The notes beneath the pieces were generated by a model, which saw only the letters and a list, made by a program, of their open reading frames with translations, did no database searches and was not told where the DNA came from. 64,000 bases of DNA, from positions 30,999,016 to 31,063,015 of the forward strand of contig NC_052475.1 in the NCBI RefSeq assembly GCF_009730915.1, given 5' to 3'. This document shows, in pieces, positions 19,946 through 34,332 of this stretch. Position 1 is the stretch's first letter. Every line of letters begins with the position of its first letter. The position numbers and the translations under genes were made by a program. The stretch comes from Dioscorea cayenensis subsp. rotundata. Taxonomy: Eukaryota; Streptophyta; Magnoliopsida; Dioscoreales; Dioscoreaceae.

Positions 19946-22616
19946 TTATTTGAAGGCTATTCCATAAACATGAGGACTAATGAGGGAAACATTAGACAGG
20001 AATGTCATATTAAGGATCAAGTTAGAGAAGCCAGCTTCAGAAATCTGTTTCCCAGTTTCCCTGGTGAGATGACAACCATCAGAAAGTAACTGCTGCAGAG
20101 GATCAAGAGCAGTCTGTGCCAACCGAAGAAGTGTGCCATCTGAAGATTGGAAACACATAATCAAGAATAGAACAGAGTCTTCATCTCGGTTTCAAACAAA
20201 AAATACGAAAAATGGGCCGAGAATTACCGGGAGCTGCAACATGCTCAATGAATAAGTACAAACCACCTGGCTTTAACACCCTTTTCACTTCTGCATGGAT
20301 AGGATAGACATTGTATTAAGTGTATGAGTGTTATTAAGTTTGTTAGCTTATACATATTGGAATAGATAAAGGGATCATCTAATTGTTTGTAGTGACTTTT
20401 TGCATGTAGTTTGTGATGGAGAACCATTCTGGATCTATGCCACAAACCAGGAAATGTGAATTTAAAATAGATGGTGGCAGGAAGCCACGCATTCAAATGA
20501 ATATAAAAAAACAAGAGCATAAAGCATTTTGGTTTATAATTTAATTCTTCTTTAGTGTGAGATGTTTGAATTAGGCAAGGATAGAGATTGAGGTGTCAAG
20601 AAACTAAAAATTTGGCTGACTTTAATCTTATAAACAAGGAAGTAAGTAGAAAGGAAGGATGAAACTCCTAAGGTTACCTCTGAGTGACTGATATACATCT
20701 TCAACGGAACATAATACGATAGTCCCAATAACGGCATCCATAGAATTGTCTGCTGCTGGTAAAGCCTCTCCAACCTGGAAAGAGATAAAAAAGACTTGAA
20801 CAACCATCCGAAAGAAAACACAAGCAAGTTATTGTGATGAGCTTGGAATGTCAGCATAGCAGAGGGTGAATGAAAACTATATATTGAACTTCTTGATTTT
20901 AGATATAAGTAACTAAACTCTATATGAGTAAAGAGAAAGCAACTTATACCAAAGTGATGTATAATTTACCAGACATATGTTGGCCAGATGCAGTTTCCTT
21001 ACAATAGCACTTGTGTAGCTTTGATTTCCATAACCGATGTAAAATTTTAAGTTAATAATCGCAAGACGGGTAAAAGACAATACTATACTACAGTGTTAAA
21101 TAGCATGATTTAGGAAGCAAACAGTGAGTAACATCAAAGAATATGCAACATATCATCACATTTGTCAAGCAATAATTTAAGACAAAATCACTCTGATATA
21201 TAATCATTTCTGCAAACCAGAATGATTATATTAAGATAAGAATCAGCAATATGTTGCATATTGCTGGTATGCAACATATCATCACATTTGTCAAGCAATT
21301 ATTCAAGACAAAATCACTCTGATATAAAACCATTTCTGCAAACCAGAATGACTATCATTAAAATAAGAATCAGCAGTTGGAATTACAAAGGAATTACATG
21401 AAGTTAAGACTAAAATGAGGTGATGCTAGCCAGTTGGCAAAATTATTTTGCTCTTGCTCAAATCAGATAGTTAACAAGTTTTTTCTTCAATATCAATTTT
21501 GGTTGGTCAGTAATTATTTTAAATCTATGTCTGAGCATGGAACATACCCCTTGGATAAAACTAAAACCGGCAGGTGATAATCCCGCGGCTGCGGCCGCTT
21601 TCCGAGCATATTTCTCCATCTTTTTATTAGGGTCAACGCCGATAACATTAAGATCTTTATCAGCTCTAGCATAGTATTTGAAATTGGGCCCTGTACCAAC
21701 ACCAAGCTCCAGCACATGCTTACTATTTTCAATTAAATGAGGGAAGAGCTTTGCTTTGTAGCCTGAAATCTTCCATAAATAAAGAAATAGCAATCAACGC
21801 ATTGAAAGCAAAAACAAGAAGAAGAGAGTTGCCAAGTTTACTTGACAACACTCCATATAAAAACACACAGGAATCATATGAATCATTTGATAAAACTCAG
21901 ATTCATTGGAAAGGGCTTTGTTTGAAGTTAAACCAGCCAAGGGAAACAAAAATTTCGTCATTTTTCTTTCTTTAAAAGAATGAAAAAAGTAGAACATAGG
22001 AACAAGATGCACTAGTTCACTACTACCTCCAAGCCACAACAAATGGAAATCAAAATCCATGTCTTGAAGAAAGAGTTTAAGGTTATGCATAACACCAGAT
22101 AAGGAGTTCAATAAATTAGGAAACAAGCAGAGCCAAAAGAAGTAAACTTTGCTTCAGATTTTGGCTTAAAGCATTAAAATATGAACCCAAAATGATTTTT
22201 TTTTTTTTTTCTGATAAGAAAATATATAGCAATGCATGAATGAACTAGAGACGAAAACTCAAAACAAGAGAGAATATTTAGGACAGACCTGAGCTTCGTA
22301 AGACCTCATGTCTTGGTCCATAGCCCTGGCAAAGAATTCTTCATACCAATCAGGTCTCCGTGCATGTATCTTCTCAATCACATCCTGAAATAGCTATTCA
22401 ATTAATTAAACACCAATATAAAAATAAAAAAATAAAACCAAAAAAACAAAAACAAAAAAAGAAAGAAGCTCAGACTGTTGGAGTGGACGGGAAAGAGATG
22501 AGCGAGGAGGAAGCAGCCAAGAGATGCCTCCTCCCGCAGGAGCAGCATTTAAGCGGCTCAGAACGTAACAGAGTAGCGGTAATTGGCGAGACATGGTACA
22601 TGACCGAGGCGTGCAT
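19946..22616 (-). CDS. SAM-dependent methyltransferase (METTL7/UbiE-like), 6 exons
   Basis: Exons, 5' to 3' on minus: 22616-22476, 22384-22289, 21769-21548, 20774-20678, 20290-20228, 20139-19946; 270 residues. Motif I of class I methyltransferases is VLELGVGTGPN (about 98-108), followed by the acidic NVIGVDPNKKMEKY. VGEALPAADNSMDAVIGT and KRVLKPGGLYLFIEHVAA form the later core motifs. The C-terminus HVYGIAFK matches plant METTL7-like proteins. The N-terminus (about 1-47), with CCSCGRRHLLAAS, looks like an organelle-targeting segment; Arabidopsis relatives have a similar CNCGRRHFLG stretch. The substrate is unknown. The exon 1 donor (GTCTGA) is weak, so exon 1 is the least certain part. The third exon's acceptor was chosen to keep phase (ISGYKAK). 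An intronic tandem repeat lies at 21143-21376. Confidence 0.9.
21143..21376. repeat. Intronic tandem duplication, period 126 bp
   Basis: Two direct copies, starting at 21143 and 21269, share ATGCAACATATCATCACATT at their starts and CAAACCAGAATGA plus AAGAATCAGCA at their ends. They differ at a small number of positions. They lie in the methyltransferase intron between the exons at 20774 and 21548. The junction also forms a small ATGTTGCAT/ATGCAACAT inverted repeat. Confidence 0.85.
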
Positions 22617-26265: not shown

Positions 26266-26993
26266 GTTCCTGAAAAGATCGCCAGAGGTCTCTACGACAC
26301 TCACAAAGTCAAACAATCAAGACAACCAACCAATTAAACAATTCAATCAACCCATAATAAATCACAAACAGCACACACCAATTTATACGTGGAAAACCCT
26401 TCGATGTGAAGGATAAAAAACCACGGGACCGTTCAAGGAGTCCACCCTTTACTTCTCTTATTGATAAATTGAGGGCAAAAGAACCCCAAATCAGTCAACA
26501 AAGGATTCACAACCCACCAACAAACTCCAAGAACAATAAGAGACGAATATAGAGCAAAAAAAGTGTAGAAAGCACCCAAAAAACTGCTGGTCTGTTAAAG
26601 CTGCGTTTCTGACCAAACAGGAGCACCTGAGGACGATTCGACCGTTCAAAATGAAGCCCTTCTTGTCAGGAACAAGCTGGCCAAATTTGAGCAAAATCGG
26701 ACCACGGGAGCACCTCCGATCGTAGAGTTGATCAAAACTGCGTACATAAAACCGAGAATAACAAACCCCTCTTAAGCTCTCTCTTTTATTCTTTGATTGA
26801 CGTCCGCCTTTCTGATGTTGTACAGCCAAAACCAAAGAATACCATCCCCCAAAAAAAATTCTCTTGGAAACCCTAATATTAATGCCAAATGGACCCAAAA
26901 AATAAGACATAACAAGTCTAATATAAAGACCCAACATAAACAACAAAAGCAATATAAAATATTACAAATATGGGCTGGACCCATAACAGTTCC
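26266..26993 (-). mobile_element. Solo LTR of a Ty1/Copia-type retrotransposon with target duplication
   Basis: The LTR spans 26271-26988 (718 bp), bounded by TG...CA, with the same five bases, GTTCC, on both sides (26266-26270 and 26989-26993). On the minus strand it begins TGTTATGGGTCC. Near its 3' end it has GGTTTTCCACGTATAAATTG, a stretch resembling the U5 side of plant copia LTRs. No internal region is present, so it is a solo LTR left by LTR-LTR recombination. The intact target duplication suggests a moderately recent insertion; age cannot be measured from one LTR. Confidence 0.8.
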
Positions 26994-28052
26994 CATCGCA
27001 TCTTATAATAATCCTCCATATTATCATAGTGAAACATTGATGCAGAAAAATCATCCTCATAATACTCCTCTGTTTCACTGCCTTACTTTTAACTTTATTC
27101 AGTGCCTGTGCTTCTCCATTAATTTTAAGATTTCTTCTTTTTAATTGTTAAACACAATGAGAAACATTAAATTAAAAGTCAAGAAGATTGAGGAAAGAGA
27201 GGTCTGATGCCTGAAAAGGTTACGGGAAAAGAGGATGAGAATTCAGAGCTCTGTAGCATTACACAGCTCATGTCACACCCACACCAACTCACATTCATCA
27301 CCCACTCATCTCTCTCTCTTTCCAGCACAGACACATGGACACATCTAAAAAACAGTATCTCCAGCTCTGCTTCATAAGCTGTGGGCTATATCTATATATA
27401 CATTTATATCTTTGGTTTCAGAATGCAGTAAATCTTTCTGCAGGCTTTTGTATCTGCTTTTCTGGGATGTTTGTTCCCTCTCAATCCTGTATCTTATTTT
27501 CACCAAAGTTCACACACTAGCAATGCCAAGTTACAATGATTAATTACAGAGTATTGGACAATAATTCAACTGCTTAGGAGGTACAAAAGTACTAGAGTAG
27601 TGTATGGCACAAAGATGACCTACAAACCTAGGTGATGGCTGATGGGAACTCATCCTGAAGCTCTTGGTTTCCCAACTCCTGCAAAGTCACATCCAAGTTC
27701 ACCAAAACCATCATACAGATTCCATAACTCTCTTTTCCCCACTGGTCAACAAGTAAAACCCATCTTTATAAGCTCTCTTATTAACTTCTCCTCTCCAACA
27801 CCACCTTCCCATTAGCCCATTCTCTGTCACAGGAGTCTCCACAGTCCAATAGGGAACTCCTCCATCCTTTCCTTTCCTTGTCTTTCTTTTCTCTTTAGAG
27901 CAATGCAATCATGGACAGATGCACTCATTCCATGCAAAAAAGGTTGTGGGATTCTTCTTCATTCCATGCAATTGGCTGGATGCTCTGCTTCTCATGTGCT
28001 ACAGTATATACACTTGCCATTTTTACTCATCTAAGGTCTTGCATGTGGAAAT
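26994..28052. other. Spacer upstream of MIR169
   Basis: No protein gene is supported. A TATA-rich stretch near 27388-27406 and CT-rich sequence near 27309-27322 could belong to the pri-miRNA promoter or transcript. A short open minus-strand frame ending near 27625 was considered and not accepted. Confidence 0.4.
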
Positions 28053-28227
28053 GAGGTTTATATTGTGCAGCCAAGGATGACTTGCCGGTCATGTTTCTCT
28101 ACTGCTTTAACATCATGCATGCAGTGATTAAATGTTACGTAATACGTAGCTTTGTGAGAGTGCATGCATGGTTTATTATTAGATTCATACCTATCCGGCA
28201 AGTCGTTTTTGGCTATGCAATTACCTC
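28053..28227 (+). ncRNA. MIR169: MIR169 precursor hairpin
   Basis: The 5' arm carries a sequence identical to plant miR169 (CAGCCAAGGATGACTTGCC plus two G) at 28068-28088. The 3' arm at 28195-28217 (CCGGCAAGTCGTTTTTGGCT, then ATG) pairs with it almost fully, with three G-U wobbles and one terminal mismatch. The stem continues outward with GAGGT (28053) against ACCTC (28227), giving a foldback of about 175 nt with a long terminal arm of roughly 106 nt. miR169 guides cleavage of NF-YA transcription-factor mRNAs and affects drought, nitrogen and flowering responses. No NF-YA gene lies in this window. The primary transcript ends are not visible. Confidence 0.93.
28068..28088 (+). ncRNA. miR169: Mature miR169 (5' arm)
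   Basis: 21 nt matching the miR169 variant ending in CCGG. The expected star strand lies near 28198-28218 on the 3' arm, similar to the known miR169 star GGCAAGTTGTCCTTGGCT but with U in place of C at two positions. Confidence 0.93.
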
Positions 28228-29348
28228 CTTTTCTCATGCTAGACCTGTGATGATGATATACATAGCTAAAGAATATATGCATGCAAACATGTTGGATATT
28301 TGAGGTTATGTGTTTTTGGTTTTCATATAATTTTTTTTTCCAAGCTAATTAAATTAATTAAACTCTTCCTCATAGCTAGATTAACATGCATCATCTCTAT
28401 CTTGCTTACCGACGCTAAGCAAGGACTGATTTCTACCACTGTCCTTGTGTGATTGATGTTTCTCTAACGTGCGTAGAGGTTAATGAAGCAAGGGTGCCAA
28501 GTGTTGGGACATCTTGCCACATGTTTTTTCTTCATTGCACTATTTAACGTCCATTATAGCTTCAGTACTGCTCACCATATGCATTAATTCATTCATTGAT
28601 GAGTGAATGTTGAATGAATCTTTATCATTTTTTTTTTCTCTTCTTCTGGTGTTAATGTGAATCTGATAAATTAACCATCAGATCTGTTCAAATGAGAGGC
28701 TTATAAATATTGCAAAATAGTTATTATCTTTTCTTCACCACCACATTGAAGTACATCATGAGTTACTCAACTTAATTACTCCCCAATCTTTTTTATGGAA
28801 TGAGTTTTCACTTCACTACCAAAGCCAAATCCATAAACTCACAGGATGGAATCGAGTGGCTTACATTACATGTGTCACGGAGTATACGTACGGCAAGTGT
28901 TTTCACAACTTATTTATTTATGTTTCAATTTCTCCGGAACTTATGGTCCAAATGTGTGTACGAGGACCTAGTGCAGTGTTGTGTAGCAGTTCTAGCTCAA
29001 AATGTTATAGATTTATTGTCTATAAAAGAAGTCATAAATGAAATATAAAGAAGATGGATTCCCTGCCTTTTTGTGTAAAGTTCTCTGTCCCATTATAAAT
29101 GTTTCATTAACCGTTTTATAAGAAGAATAGTTAAATTAATATTTTCATAAATATTTAGTTTATACATTTATTTTACTAATTTCTCACTCTATTCATTCTA
29201 TTTATGTATTATAATAGTAATAAAATACAATGTATTTAAATAAATTGATAAAATTTAATTTTAAAAATTAATATTTAAATTTTTAGAAATGGACGCTTTA
29301 CATTGAAACGAAGAGAGTATTTTTGAACCACGATTGAACGAATTTTGA

Positions 29349-29380
<32 letters not shown>
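28228..29380. other. Spacer, no supported gene
   Basis: It contains the probable 3' part of the MIR169 primary transcript and AT-rich DNA, ending in a (TA)n tract at 29352-29380. No coding frame is supported. Confidence 0.4.
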
Positions 29381-29383
<3 letters not shown>

Positions 29384-29630
29384 TGAGAACCCATCATCTA
29401 GGGATGTCCCTAGATTTTAAATCTAGGGATGTCCATAGTAGTCATCGGATGAAAATCTGACGGTTCTTATTATTATAAACAGTAGAAATTGCGTTCTACA
29501 GTGTTGAGCAGTGATCATGAACAGTAAAAAAGTGTACAGTGTTTATATAATCAATCAATTATCGGATGATGATCCAACGGTTTAGATTTAAAACGTCCAT
29601 AGATTTCAAATCTAGGGATTTACTTAGATG

Positions 29631-29637
<7 letters not shown>
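29381..29637. mobile_element. MITE inserted between (TA)n tracts
   Basis: The left end (CATCATCTAGGGATGTCCCT then AGATTT) and the reverse complement of the right end (CATCATCTAAGTAAATCCCT then AGATTT) form terminal inverted repeats of about 45 bp around a 257-bp element. It is flanked by (TA)n on both sides, so a TA target duplication is possible but cannot be read. It contains GATCCAACGGTTT, a motif common in such elements. It lies about 310 bp upstream of the DUF962 start. Confidence 0.65.
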
Positions 29638-29668
<31 letters not shown>

Positions 29669-29945
29669 GTGTATATACAAAATATCCAATTTTTTTAATT
29701 AGGATATACATGATTTAATTAAAAAAAATTAAAATTCATAGAATTTTTTAAATCTAATAAATATAGGTATTAATTCTAAAGATGCAGACCAAAAAGTGGA
29801 AATTCCCAAACTCGCCAGTGAATTATTAATTATTACATCTATGCCACCGCCATGGCATAACTCGCCCCCGTCTTTCACCACGGACATACGACGGCCTCCC
29901 AAATTTCTCCAGAAAATGCAATTCAAGATGATTTCAATGGCTTCA

Positions 29946-32078
29946 ATGGGGAATGGAGGAAGAGGGTTGTTCGATCTGGAGAAGCATTTCGCCTTCTATG
30001 CCGCATATCACACCAATCCCATCAATGTTCTCATCCACATGCTCTTCGTCTGGCCAATCTTCTTCACTTTCGTTGTGCTTTTGCACTTCACTCCTCCTCT
30101 TATTCGTCTTCCCGTCCCCTTCTCCGATGATCTTTCTATCAGCTCGGCCTTCGGCGTTGCTTTCGTCTACGCCTTGTTTTATGTCCTTTTTGATAGGAAA
30201 GCTGGCTCCTTGGCCGCCCTTCTCTGCATGCTCTGCTGGCTCGCCACTCGCGCCCTTGCCCGCCGCCTCGGCTTCTCCCTTGCCTGGAAGGTTGTTTCTT
30301 TTCCCTAATCCATCCCCCATTCCCCCCTCTCTTTGATTTTTTTTTTTAATTTTAAATTCGCTTGTGATTTTGATTTCCCTATTTGTTCAAAGCTGAGTTT
30401 TTTTTTTTTCATCTTTTTAGTATGTTAATTATTTATTTTGATCTTGTGTTGTTTGATTGTACCTGCTGCTACAAAGCCTAAGAGAGATATATATAAAATG
30501 CTTGTGGCATTGTTGTGTTTCTTCAAACTATATGACTTCTGATTATTTACATAGAATTTTGTATCATTTATGAGGCACAAATTTTATGATGGTTGGTGGG
30601 TAGTTTGTTAGTTAGCAATATCTCTATTTTTTAATCAATTACTTCTTCTGTCTTTCTGGTATGCGAATGGCTGGTAAGTGGGAACTACCATTGATTCTCT
30701 GCTTGACTATTTTAGAATGATCTGGTCTTCTTTATTTATTTATTTTGTTTTTTTGTGTGAAATAATTAATTATATCAACAAGTTGCCATCTATATGTTCA
30801 TTTAGCCTTTTGACAATGCTGGATGGGTGGTCCTAACATATTCTGTGATCTATGAGCCCTTAATAAAGTTACATAACTTCTGAATTTTAGATTATTAGTA
30901 TTCATCGTGTGTATTTGTTTTATACTCATATCAGTATTGCAATGCTGTTGTGATGTGTCTCTTGGCTTGTTTACTAATTTTTTTCTTCCCTTACCTTCTT
31001 CATTTCACTCACTTGCTGCCATGTTCTTTCTCTTATCCTTTGTCTTTTGTAAAAGATTGTTCGATAGAAGAAGTTTAAGGTTCTGTATAGTGGATGATGA
31101 TGCTTAATTATGTAGGATATTATCTGATGTTTTGACTCTCATTTCCTTTTTCTTTTTCTTTGTTGAGGAATTTCAGCTGGAGCTGTATAAATTAACCTAT
31201 GAATGAGAAGTGATGCCTTATTTTTTATTTTGGAGAATGTTATTCTGTTTGTTGATCTTTAATTATCCAAATTATATAGCACTGAATTAGCTGTCATGCT
31301 TATAATTTTGCCAGCCAAAACTCATCCTTTTAGGAGATGGTCATATAATGTACTCAGTTAATTTAAATAAGCAACTCGTTGTAGTGTATCCTGGATAGAG
31401 TAAGATAAGAATTCATCACTGAAGTAGAGCATTCTGACCATGCACATAATGTGATCATGAATAATAGCTGGTTATAGTTGATTGTATAGGGTGGTTATTG
31501 ACTATACACAGCCATTATAGCAGAACTCAGTTTATTGCAAAGTGATATGACTTATCCTCAATATGATTTTTAATGATAGTCACTTATGGCCGTTTGTCTA
31601 AAGAAGTTATGAACTAGTAAACTGTGGTAGAAGAATATCTTTATTGCAAATATTTGTCATACAGGTGGTTCTCGCTGTCCAGTTGTTCTGCTGGACTGGA
31701 CAATTTATAGGCCATGGCATATTCGAGGTAACAACTCATTCCAATCTTCTCCATTGGATGCCGATAAAACATGCTATCATTATTCATCAGATCCCACTCA
31801 TGATTCGTTGATATTTTCAGAAACGGTCACCCGCTCTTCTGGATAACCTGTCTCAAGCTTTTCTGATGGCTCCATTTTTTGTTCTGCTCGAGGTAATCAT
31901 CTATTTGCGCAAATTGAAAGCATCTCAACACGACCTAAATTACTCAATTTTTCATCTTCAGGCATTGCGAGATTTCTTCGGCTATGAACCGTATCCAGAT
32001 TTCTATGCCAATGTCCAAGCTAAGATAAAGGCGAACCGGAAAGCACAGCAGCGCAACAAACACAAATTCTGTGCTTGA
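29946..32078 (+). CDS. DUF962 / Mpo1-like membrane protein, 4 exons
   Basis: Exons: 29946-30290, 31665-31727, 31821-31892, 31962-32078; 198 residues. The start MGNGGRGLFDLEKHF was chosen because relatives begin just before GLFDLEKHFAFY; in-frame ATGs at 29937, 29928 and 29916 are alternatives. Conserved signatures are FAFYAAYHTNPINVLIHMLF and FIGHGIFEKRSPALL, with spaced histidines. The ending FFGYEPYPDFYANVQAKI is also typical. Three to four hydrophobic segments indicate an ER membrane protein. Yeast Mpo1 is an iron-dependent dioxygenase in 2-hydroxy fatty-acid alpha-oxidation (phytosphingosine breakdown). The same role is likely here but inferred. Intron 1 is 1.37 kb. The stop is 87 bp from the stop of the opposing PPR gene. 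Confidence 0.93.
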
Positions 32079-32165
32079 AGAACTTGGAAGCTTCCATTAC
32101 TTGCAAATCATCTAAAAACTAGCAAATGTTCAGCTCGGGTTGTGCACAAGTTTGTAATATATTAT

Positions 32166-33608
32166 CTAGAACATGTGTTCCCTGATCAAACTGTTGCCAG
32201 GTCCTGGCTTCTTAACTCCTCTCCCATGCATCATCCCTCTGAGCCTAAACACTTGGTTCCACTGTCCAGCACCAGCGTAGACATGGGAGAGCAACACATA
32301 ATCACTGCTGTGCTCTTCCAACTCCTGGAGATTTCTCTGGACAAGCTCACCTAGCTCCACCTCCCCATGAACTCTACAAGCTGCCAGCAGTGCTCGCCAG
32401 ACCACAGCATTGCCCTTCACTTGCATGCCATTAATCAAGTCATACCCCTCCCTGAGAAACCCCATTCTCCCAAATAGATCAACTAAGCAACCATAATGCT
32501 GAACCATAGGCTTGATCCCATAATCCTTTGTCATGCTTTCAAAGTAGTATTTCCCTTCCTCCACGAGCCCTCCGTGCGCGCACGCGCACAACACGCCCAA
32601 AAACGTAATGCCATCGGGGGACGCTTGACCGCGCATTCTGTCAAACAGCACCAGCGCTTGACCCGCACGCCCGTGCATGGCCAGTCCCAGTATCATCGAG
32701 TTCCATGAAATCACACTCCTTTCCTTCATTCCCTCGAACACATCTACCGCTCGATCGATTTCCCCGCACTTGGCGTACATATCAATGAGCGCGTTGGAAA
32801 CCGAGACGAAATCGCGTAGCATGGAGCGGCTGAGCCGCGCGTGAATCCGTTTCCCGTAATCCAACTCGCCTAACTCGGAGCAGGCGGAGAGGGTGACAAC
32901 GATGGTGGCGTCGTCTGGCGTGAACCCGCTCCTCTGCATCCTCTCGAACACTCGTAGCGCTTCTCGGTAGTGGCCGCAGTGGACGTGGCCGTCGATGAGA
33001 CTGTTCCACAACACTATGTCAGCATCCGCGCCGGGTATTTCTTCAAACACTTGATAGGCATTAGACATGTCGCCGAACAAACCGTACATATGGACGAGAG
33101 TGTTCCTCACAAAGGAGTGGGTTTGAAAACCATGTGTCAGCACAGAGCCATGGAGCTGCGCGCCCATCGCAGCGGTGGGTAGGTCCCCGCACAGCTTGAG
33201 CAAGAAGGCGAAGGTGAAGTTATCCGGAGAATTGCCGCTGCGGCGCATAGTGCGGAAGAGGAGGAAAGCGTCTTGGGTCCTGCGGGCTTTTGCCAGTGCT
33301 CGAATAACGGTGTTCCAAATGAAGGTGTCTGGGTGTTGGATGTGGTTGAAGAGGGAGAGGGCGTGGTCAGTGGCGATGTGGTGGTCGGAGTCGGCGCAGA
33401 AAGTGAGGAGCTTGGCGAGGACGAAGATGTGCTGGTCGAAGCCAGTGCGAATGATGCGGGCGTGGAGTTGTTCCAAATGGCGCATTGTGATGCATGATTG
33501 GATGAGCCAAATGAGATGATGCTCTTTGGAGTAGGAGTAGGAGTAGTTGTAAGCCTCTGATGGTGGAGATATCTTGCTGCTCAACCAGCACCATCTCCTC
33601 ATCATCAT
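32166..33608 (-). CDS. Pentatricopeptide repeat protein, PLS class, E type
   Basis: Intronless, 480 residues. A short N-terminal region precedes the first recognisable unit LIQSCITMRHLEQLHARIIR (about 35-54). P-, L- and S-type repeats follow, for example FIWNTVIRALAKARRTQDAF, IVLWNSLIDGHVHCGHYREA and VISWNSMILGLAMHGRAGQA. A C-terminal E domain contains VVWRALLAACRVHGEVELGE and ends at GVKKPGPGNSLI. No DYW domain is present. Such proteins act in mitochondria or plastids, usually in C-to-U RNA editing, where an E-type protein would need a DYW partner. Targeting is not clear from the N-terminus. Base composition is more GC-rich than the surroundings. Its 3' end meets the DUF962 gene. Confidence 0.93.
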   Translation of the reverse strand: MMMRRWCWLSSKISPPSEAYNYSYSYSKEHHLIWLIQSCITMRHLEQLHARIIRTGFDQHIFVLAKLLTFCADSDHHIATDHALSLFNHIQHPDTFIWNTVIRALAKARRTQDAFLLFRTMRRSGNSPDNFTFAFLLKLCGDLPTAAMGAQLHGSVLTHGFQTHSFVRNTLVHMYGLFGDMSNAYQVFEEIPGADADIVLWNSLIDGHVHCGHYREALRVFERMQRSGFTPDDATIVVTLSACSELGELDYGKRIHARLSRSMLRDFVSVSNALIDMYAKCGEIDRAVDVFEGMKERSVISWNSMILGLAMHGRAGQALVLFDRMRGQASPDGITFLGVLCACAHGGLVEEGKYYFESMTKDYGIKPMVQHYGCLVDLFGRMGFLREGYDLINGMQVKGNAVVWRALLAACRVHGEVELGELVQRNLQELEEHSSDYVLLSHVYAGAGQWNQVFRLRGMMHGRGVKKPGPGNSLIREHMF

Positions 33609-34332
33609 TCATTGTTAGTGTTCCGCTATAATAATTAGTCACAACACCAACCATACCAACTAAATTTGTGGTACACAGATAAACATCTAATTCATTATTT
33701 ATTTATTTTTTTTATTATCAGAAAATTTAGTTATTTTATAAAATTTTATAATTTTTTTTTTTAAATTAGCTCTAATTTATATATTCACGTTTCTTACTGA
33801 TATCTAATTCTAATATGAGAGTTGAATAAAATGTTAAAAGTAATTTTAAAAAAATAATAATAAATATTTCGTGATATTTAAAAATAATAGAAAAAAATAT
33901 AGATTTATTACGGATATAGATTGAGTATATATTTATCTACCCCTTGATTTCTCTATATAGAACATGTTTATCATCTTTATAAAAAAAAATTAAAAATTAA
34001 AAATTAAAAATTGATGTATTAATATACCTTATTAGTACTTGGTTTTTTGTGCATCAGTGAAAAGATTAAGATACATGATATGTTTACAAAATTTGTGCAT
34101 GAAGCTGATAGATGTCTTGTTGTATTAATAATGTATGGTAGAAAAAGATGACCAATGAAACACAATAGAATAATGAAAAGATGGTTTCATATCTATATGC
34201 AGCATTGCAAATATGGAACAAAAGATGGATCACAGACCCCATTTCATTAATAATCCAGCTACTATAAGTTTAGGGTGCTCATGTGTCACAAAGGTTTATT
34301 ATAAAGAAGATCAAACTCATTCACAGAGGTTT

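Follow-up and report, generated by a model that had tools for sequence, protein, structure and literature searches.

A probably functional MIR169 gene of Dioscorea rotundata, its lower stem and its predicted NF-YA targets

The 64,000-nucleotide stretch of the Dioscorea rotundata genome that was analysed here (the window) carries at positions 28027-28253 of its forward strand what is very probably (roughly 0.93) a canonical MIR169 gene maintained by selection. The locus is most likely ordinary and functional, as judged from its sequence; its present-day expression and the way in which its precursor is cut are less sure than its identity. It is an intact member of a known microRNA family, and the less expected point is a CAUG box in the lower stem. 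MIR169 is an old and large plant family and at least 17 such places occur in this genome, so that the copy in the window is of modest interest by itself. The first-pass annotation had proposed a MIR169 precursor at this position, and the proposal is supported by the Rfam score, the fold, the geometry of the duplex, conservation confined to the stem in comparison with a collinear paralogue, and NF-YA target sites.

Hairpin, guide and star

A search of the full 64-kb window with Rfam release 15 gives a single match above cut-off, to MIR169_2 (RF00645), with a score of 65.8 bits at 28054-28228 on the plus strand (cut-off 50); the guide on the 5' arm, at 28068-28088, is aligned to the family consensus. 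Folding of 28040-28240, the check suggested with the first-pass annotation, pairs the two arms of the plus strand, with an energy of -85.5 kcal/mol where shuffles average -48.0 (z -8.44); none of 200 shuffles does as well. That annotation had described a 175-nt foldback whose base extends on both sides; foldback and extension are both real, and the extent was given too short, the hairpin being 227 nt long (28027-28253). Its outermost pair, 28027/28253, recurs with a probability of 0.90-0.96 in each of four folds whose lengths run from 281 to 1301 nt; pairs beyond it, to 28004/28280, are present in the 281-nt fold and mostly lost or weak in the longer ones. For the lower stem, a control with flanks drawn at random from the window is mixed, because 18 of 300 draws reach at least the pair number of the real flanks, and none of the 300 an energy as low. 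A chance foldback was also considered as a source of the hairpin and is ruled out by the Rfam score, the shuffles and the conservation. The parts of the hairpin are the following:

28027-28253, plus strand: MIR169 foldback, full stem including the lower stem (folds of 281-1301 nt; blocks conserved with the C18 paralogue)
28027-28067, plus strand: lower stem, 5' arm (fold; 32 of 41 bases the same in the C18 paralogue)
28042-28045, plus strand: CAUG box, 5' half, where DCL1 is predicted to cut first (majority share 0.96 over 14 loci)
28068-28088, plus strand: miR169 guide, CAGCCAAGGATGACTTGCCGG, on the 5' arm (sequence; identical in the C18 paralogue)
28089-28196, plus strand: loop and upper stem, not conserved (32 of 108 bases the same in the C18 paralogue, a share like that of the flanks)
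28197-28217, plus strand: predicted miR169*, GGCAAGTCGTTTTTGGCTATG, on the 3' arm with 2-nt overhangs (pairing table, duplex)
28218-28253, plus strand: lower stem, 3' arm (fold; 26 of 36 bases the same in the C18 paralogue)
28234-28238, plus strand: UCAUG box, 3' side, with the predicted first cut after 28238, at star end + 21 (majority share 0.99 over 14 loci)

Plant microRNA loci are recognised by a hairpin, few mismatches and no large bulge in the duplex, 2-nt overhangs, and precise 21-nt reads of guide and star; the hairpin and duplex features are all present at 28068-28088/28197-28217. The exact miR169 announced earlier for the 5' arm is indeed the 21-mer CAGCCAAGGATGACTTGCCGG, which we take to be of the miR169b/c type, and a scan of the window for its first 19 bases, allowing three mismatches, finds this one occurrence where 0.02 are expected by chance. 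Positions 28069-28088 are paired to 28214-28195 exclusively by Watson-Crick or G-U pairs and the sole mismatch is 28068/28215, in agreement with the earlier description of a star region pairing over about 20 positions with wobbles and one end mismatch. Only four of 3000 random 21-mers of the window reach 20 or 21 of 21 pairs at 60-300 nt downstream, and the guide reaches 20. The 21-nt duplex thus has one mismatch, no bulge and room for 2-nt overhangs; the overhang rule for 3' ends places the star at 28197-28217, one base away from the location previously suggested (about 28198-28218). An internal loop (28058-28061/28222) lies close beneath this duplex.

With the MIR169 family (RF00645) the window locus shares the guide on the 5' arm, a star of the form GGCAAGT(T/C)GT..., the architecture of the hairpin and target sites in NF-YA genes. 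Its predicted star differs from those of the other 15 loci examined, and ends in TATG where six of those 15 have TACA; among the eight loci in which 18 or more of the 21 star positions are paired, its loop (106 nt) is the longest, that of the other seven measuring 26-98 nt. Two CATGCATG words, presumably the RY element of B3 transcription factors, are present in the arms of the upper stem (28114-28121 and 28163-28170), a region that is not conserved in the C18 copy. Outside plants, the exact guide 21-mer has no occurrence in public viral contigs, and its 18-mer core has 21 prokaryotic places and one viral contig in public non-plant collections, which we take as chance matches due to the size of the collections.

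The MIR169 family, a duplicated block and the neighbouring elements

Genome searches were run on an assembly of 584,211,761 bases in 2,249 contigs, in which the window is C5:30999016-31063015. The reverse primer of the yam sex marker sp1, given in PMC5604175, has a single exact match in this assembly, on C11, and its backwards control has none; since that paper assigns the sex-linked region of D. rotundata to pseudo-chromosome 11, the assembly is very probably that of white Guinea yam or a near relative, although one primer is thin evidence. RF00645 matches at least 17 places, of which 13 give a match on the opposite strand as well (30 rows); the count is a lower bound since only the best candidates were scored. 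All but one of the 17 listed places (C3:18682244-18682344) fit a strict guide pattern, which gives the 16 loci referred to here. Some are clustered: four MIR169-like places lie within about 6.1 kb (C3:18682244-18688364) and two within about 3.1 kb (C1543:258297-261376).

When a 361-bp stretch around the hairpin is used as a query, one other genomic match is found, C18:20248841-20248905, which is 82% identical and covers window positions 28027-28088, the whole 5' arm between the base of the stem and the last base of the guide. This paralogue (C18:20248885) belongs to a larger duplicated block: peptides encoded at 13-21.5 kb of the window match C18:20228.5-20239.0 kb with order and strand kept, and a MIR169 locus comes next in both copies. 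Downstream of MIR169, two C18 stretches resemble a PPR gene (32166-33608) at just 39%, perhaps no more than a likeness within the gene family, and a match of 33716-33899 is 73% identical, inverted and out of order. No Mpo1-like gene is listed next to the C18 paralogue, unlike the situation in the window; on C18 such a match is found at 23.15 Mb. PMC9010478 reports that the yam lineage underwent a whole-genome duplication, with an estimated age of 64 million years; the block on C5 and C18 may derive from it, although the passages on this event name no 5/18 pair. One part of the block stands out, in that 792 aligned bases (20780-21567 against C18:20238214-20239003) are 92% identical while the other main matches are at 67-87%; this stretch probably includes introns, and gene conversion or a newer duplication is possible.

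The comparison of the two MIR169 copies separates the stem from its surroundings. The guide is identical (21/21), the lower stem is kept at 78% and 72% on its two arms and the star at 81% (17/21), whereas the loop falls to 30% and the flanks to 26-47%, so that both lie at background identity. A local search of the surroundings on C5 and C18 returns 28027-28088 and 28197-28254, i.e. both predicted arms of the stem, and three further local matches whose register does not fit the hairpins. This confinement of conservation to the stem is the strongest evidence for MIR169 function that sequence alone provides.

The first-pass annotation had also placed the locus between a solo LTR and a DUF962 gene, and both neighbours proved real:

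26271-26988, no strand assigned: solo LTR of 718 bp with TG...CA ends and a 5-bp target duplication, GTTCC (genome matches, ends)
29952-30306, plus strand: first exon of an Mpo1-like (DUF962) gene (PF06127, 32.5 bits, cut-off 24, profile positions 3-44 of 95)

The LTR has at least 40 genomic matches including itself (40 were scored of 80 candidates). Several of them form pairs with a spacing of about 4.8-4.9 kb, as expected for complete elements, and none of the matches listed lies beside the copy in the window. A blind scan for LTR ends did not have the true LTR among its best 12 of 67 candidates; the ends (26271-26988) were read directly from the genome search, and GTTCC flanks them on both sides. 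As for the Mpo1-like gene, peptides from four other Mpo1-like loci found no further DUF962 exon in 29500-32200 at E 0.01, with a query set that is weak and misses the known exon too; the gene may be diverged or broken. Between MIR169 and this gene, the stretch 29343-29665 carries TA tracts and 41-nt inverted arms (29392-29432 and 29593-29633, 83% complementary), and is like a small foldback transposon.

An alternative to a working gene is a copy of MIR169 that is intact in sequence and no longer expressed, that is, a silenced duplicate. With at least 17 family places in the genome any single copy is dispensable, and the solo LTR, which ends 1038 bp upstream of the base of the stem, could in principle affect MIR169 transcription. 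The unchanged guide, the stem arms, which are far more conserved than loop and flanks in comparison with the C18 paralogue, and the wobbles in the duplex, which keep the pairing, all speak for a gene still under selection and make silencing unlikely. Neither a silenced state nor a different cutting mode would contradict the identity of the locus as a selected MIR169 gene.

Lower stem, CAUG box and predicted processing

Fourteen of the 16 loci could be aligned along the stem; C1543:258308 and C3:18688353 were omitted, as their star is out of register in the fold. When this alignment is scored against the lower stem that is predicted for the locus in the window, 68.5% of the cells are paired (shuffle mean 60.8) and the covariation score is 0.305 (shuffle mean 0.200), in both cases with none of 500 shuffles as high, the rows being paralogues whose relatedness inflates such tests. 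All six slid versions of the stem score lower. Two of the five covariation measures are weak, 39 of 500 shuffles being as high for changes on both sides of a pair and 37 of 500 for further pair types. RNAalifold independently pairs columns 16-20 and 23-27 to their partners and gives double changes in 11 of 26 pairs.

Within the lower stem one element is nearly invariant. The bases 28042-28045 pair with 28235-28238, the latter preceded by U28234, and in the 14 aligned paralogues this box is as conserved as the microRNA itself: the mean majority shares are 0.96 for CATG and 0.99 for TCATG, compared with 0.93 for the guide (a value that its first and last two positions pull down), 0.75 for the star and 0.55-0.61 for the other four stretches below the duplex. 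Within these four stretches the positions 28039 and 28241, which are paired to each other, are also invariant across the 14 rows. The box is outside the Rfam match (28054-28228). On the 3' side, 15 of the 16 loci have [CGT]TCATG beginning 15-19 nt below the star, among them C1543:258308 and C3:18688353 (+16 and +15); the remaining locus has TTCACG, with CGTG on the opposite arm. On the 5' side, CATG is exact in 12 of the 14 aligned loci and in 12 of all 16, the two unaligned loci having CTTG and CACG.

According to our reading of the sequence, the CAUG:CAUG box would mark the first DCL1 cut. A stronger version is that this box, about 21 nt below the duplex, acts as a sequence element and not merely as paired stem, and is recognised by DCL1 or one of its partners, setting the register for the cuts that follow. 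This remains a tentative and rather doubtful suggestion: the idea of a strict sequence element is weakened because the 5' CATG is exact in only 12 of 16 loci, and we rate it slightly lower because the two unaligned loci keep the 3' half of the box and not the 5' half. Chorostecki et al. (2017), as cited in a passage of PMC8688358, found that stems of 15-17 bp tend to be conserved as paired, and the CAUG box may already be shown there; in the literature searched, at the level of titles and the beginnings of abstracts, no conserved CAUG box in MIR169 precursors was found.

By analogy with Arabidopsis, DCL1 probably makes three successive pairs of cuts in the precursor, starting near the base of the stem and moving towards the loop. 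In a passage of PMC8688358, Arabidopsis PARE data are reported with a cut 21 nt downstream of miR169b-3p and sequential base-to-loop processing; the long lower stem of Arabidopsis MIR169b likewise allows a first cut 21 nt below the star, with the difference that the Arabidopsis cuts were mapped by PARE and those of yam are predicted. In the window, 21 nt past the star is 28238|28239, right after the last base of the box and 15 nt above the base of the stem on the 3' arm, and the length, conservation and covariation of the stem are compatible with the sequential mode. The proposed steps are: (i) the transcript of the locus would fold into the 227-nt hairpin; (ii) a first cut would fall at 28043|28044 and 28238|28239; (iii) a second at 28067|28068 and 28217|28218; (iv) a third at 28088|28089 and 28196|28197 would free the guide/star duplex; (v) the guide would be loaded into an Argonaute and direct it to cleave NF-YA mRNAs downstream of the stop codon. 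Transcription, the positions of the cuts, Argonaute loading and NF-YA repression are what we infer from the data presented here.

Processing could instead be short, with the first cut directly at the base of the duplex; the part of the lower stem that lies beyond 28053-28067 would then play no role. Both the Rfam match and the hairpin as first annotated end at about 28054-28228, the internal loop at 28058-28061/28222 is just below the duplex, and the crop comparison of PMC8688358, according to its figure legend, lumps short and sequential base-to-loop precursors. But conservation and covariation extend as far as 28027/28253, with their maximum some 21 nt below the duplex, and ath-miR169b is sequential in the same paper's account, which renders short processing quite improbable. 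Highly improbable is a MIR169 precursor on the minus strand, acting also or instead with TAGCCAAAAACGACTTGCCGG as its product: that strand folds (z -6.34) and scores 40.6 bits, but this is below the cut-off of 50, and the G-U pairs formed in the sense duplex turn into A-C mismatches. At 15 of 16 loci, that of the window among them, the sense strand has the lower folding energy (the exception is C15:1734838), and matches on the other strand, seen at 13 of the 17 listed places, are expected of hairpins.

Predicted NF-YA targets

A genome search with PF02045 gave 11 exon matches which, grouped by position, correspond to six NF-YA genes. Five of them have a sense-strand miR169 site, the target conserved for this family, with scores of 3.5-5.0 (custom script) and locations 65, 133, 144, 154 and 164 nt past the stop codon; each of the five sites pairs with the guide at positions 10-11. 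In the sixth gene (C19:27112852-27113821) no site was found in the 3001 bases searched, the best score being 11. The miR169 of the window would most likely silence NF-YA. PMC3954700 connects the miR169/NF-YA module with development and with responses to stress.

In the genome the core of the site has 264 matches on both strands at up to three mismatches, against 54 for a backwards control. At up to two mismatches 38 places are listed: 17 in MIR169 hairpins, the five NF-YA sites and 16 others, six of which were inspected. One site, at C9:2394244-2394264, has a score of 2.5, better than the NF-YA sites, in a stretch without a long reading frame, and could be a target or a target mimic. Two identical copies of the core with two mismatches are found on C15 (C15:1494953-1494970 and C15:1716555-1716572), the second 2.5 kb from a MIR169 locus; they are perhaps decayed MIR169 copies. 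The core of the sequence complementary to the guide has 14 exact matches in the genome, hence guide reads alone are not assignable to the window locus.

No survey of yam MIR169 was found among the titles and first parts of abstracts in the literature searched, and the main text of the D. rotundata genome paper (PMC5604175) has no occurrence of microRNA or miRNA. The locus is a clean example of a non-coding gene that was found and validated from sequence alone, and it links a MIR169 of yam to its likely NF-YA targets. Moreover, the conserved box below the duplex is a hint that the processing of MIR169 may depend on sequence as well as on shape at the first cut.
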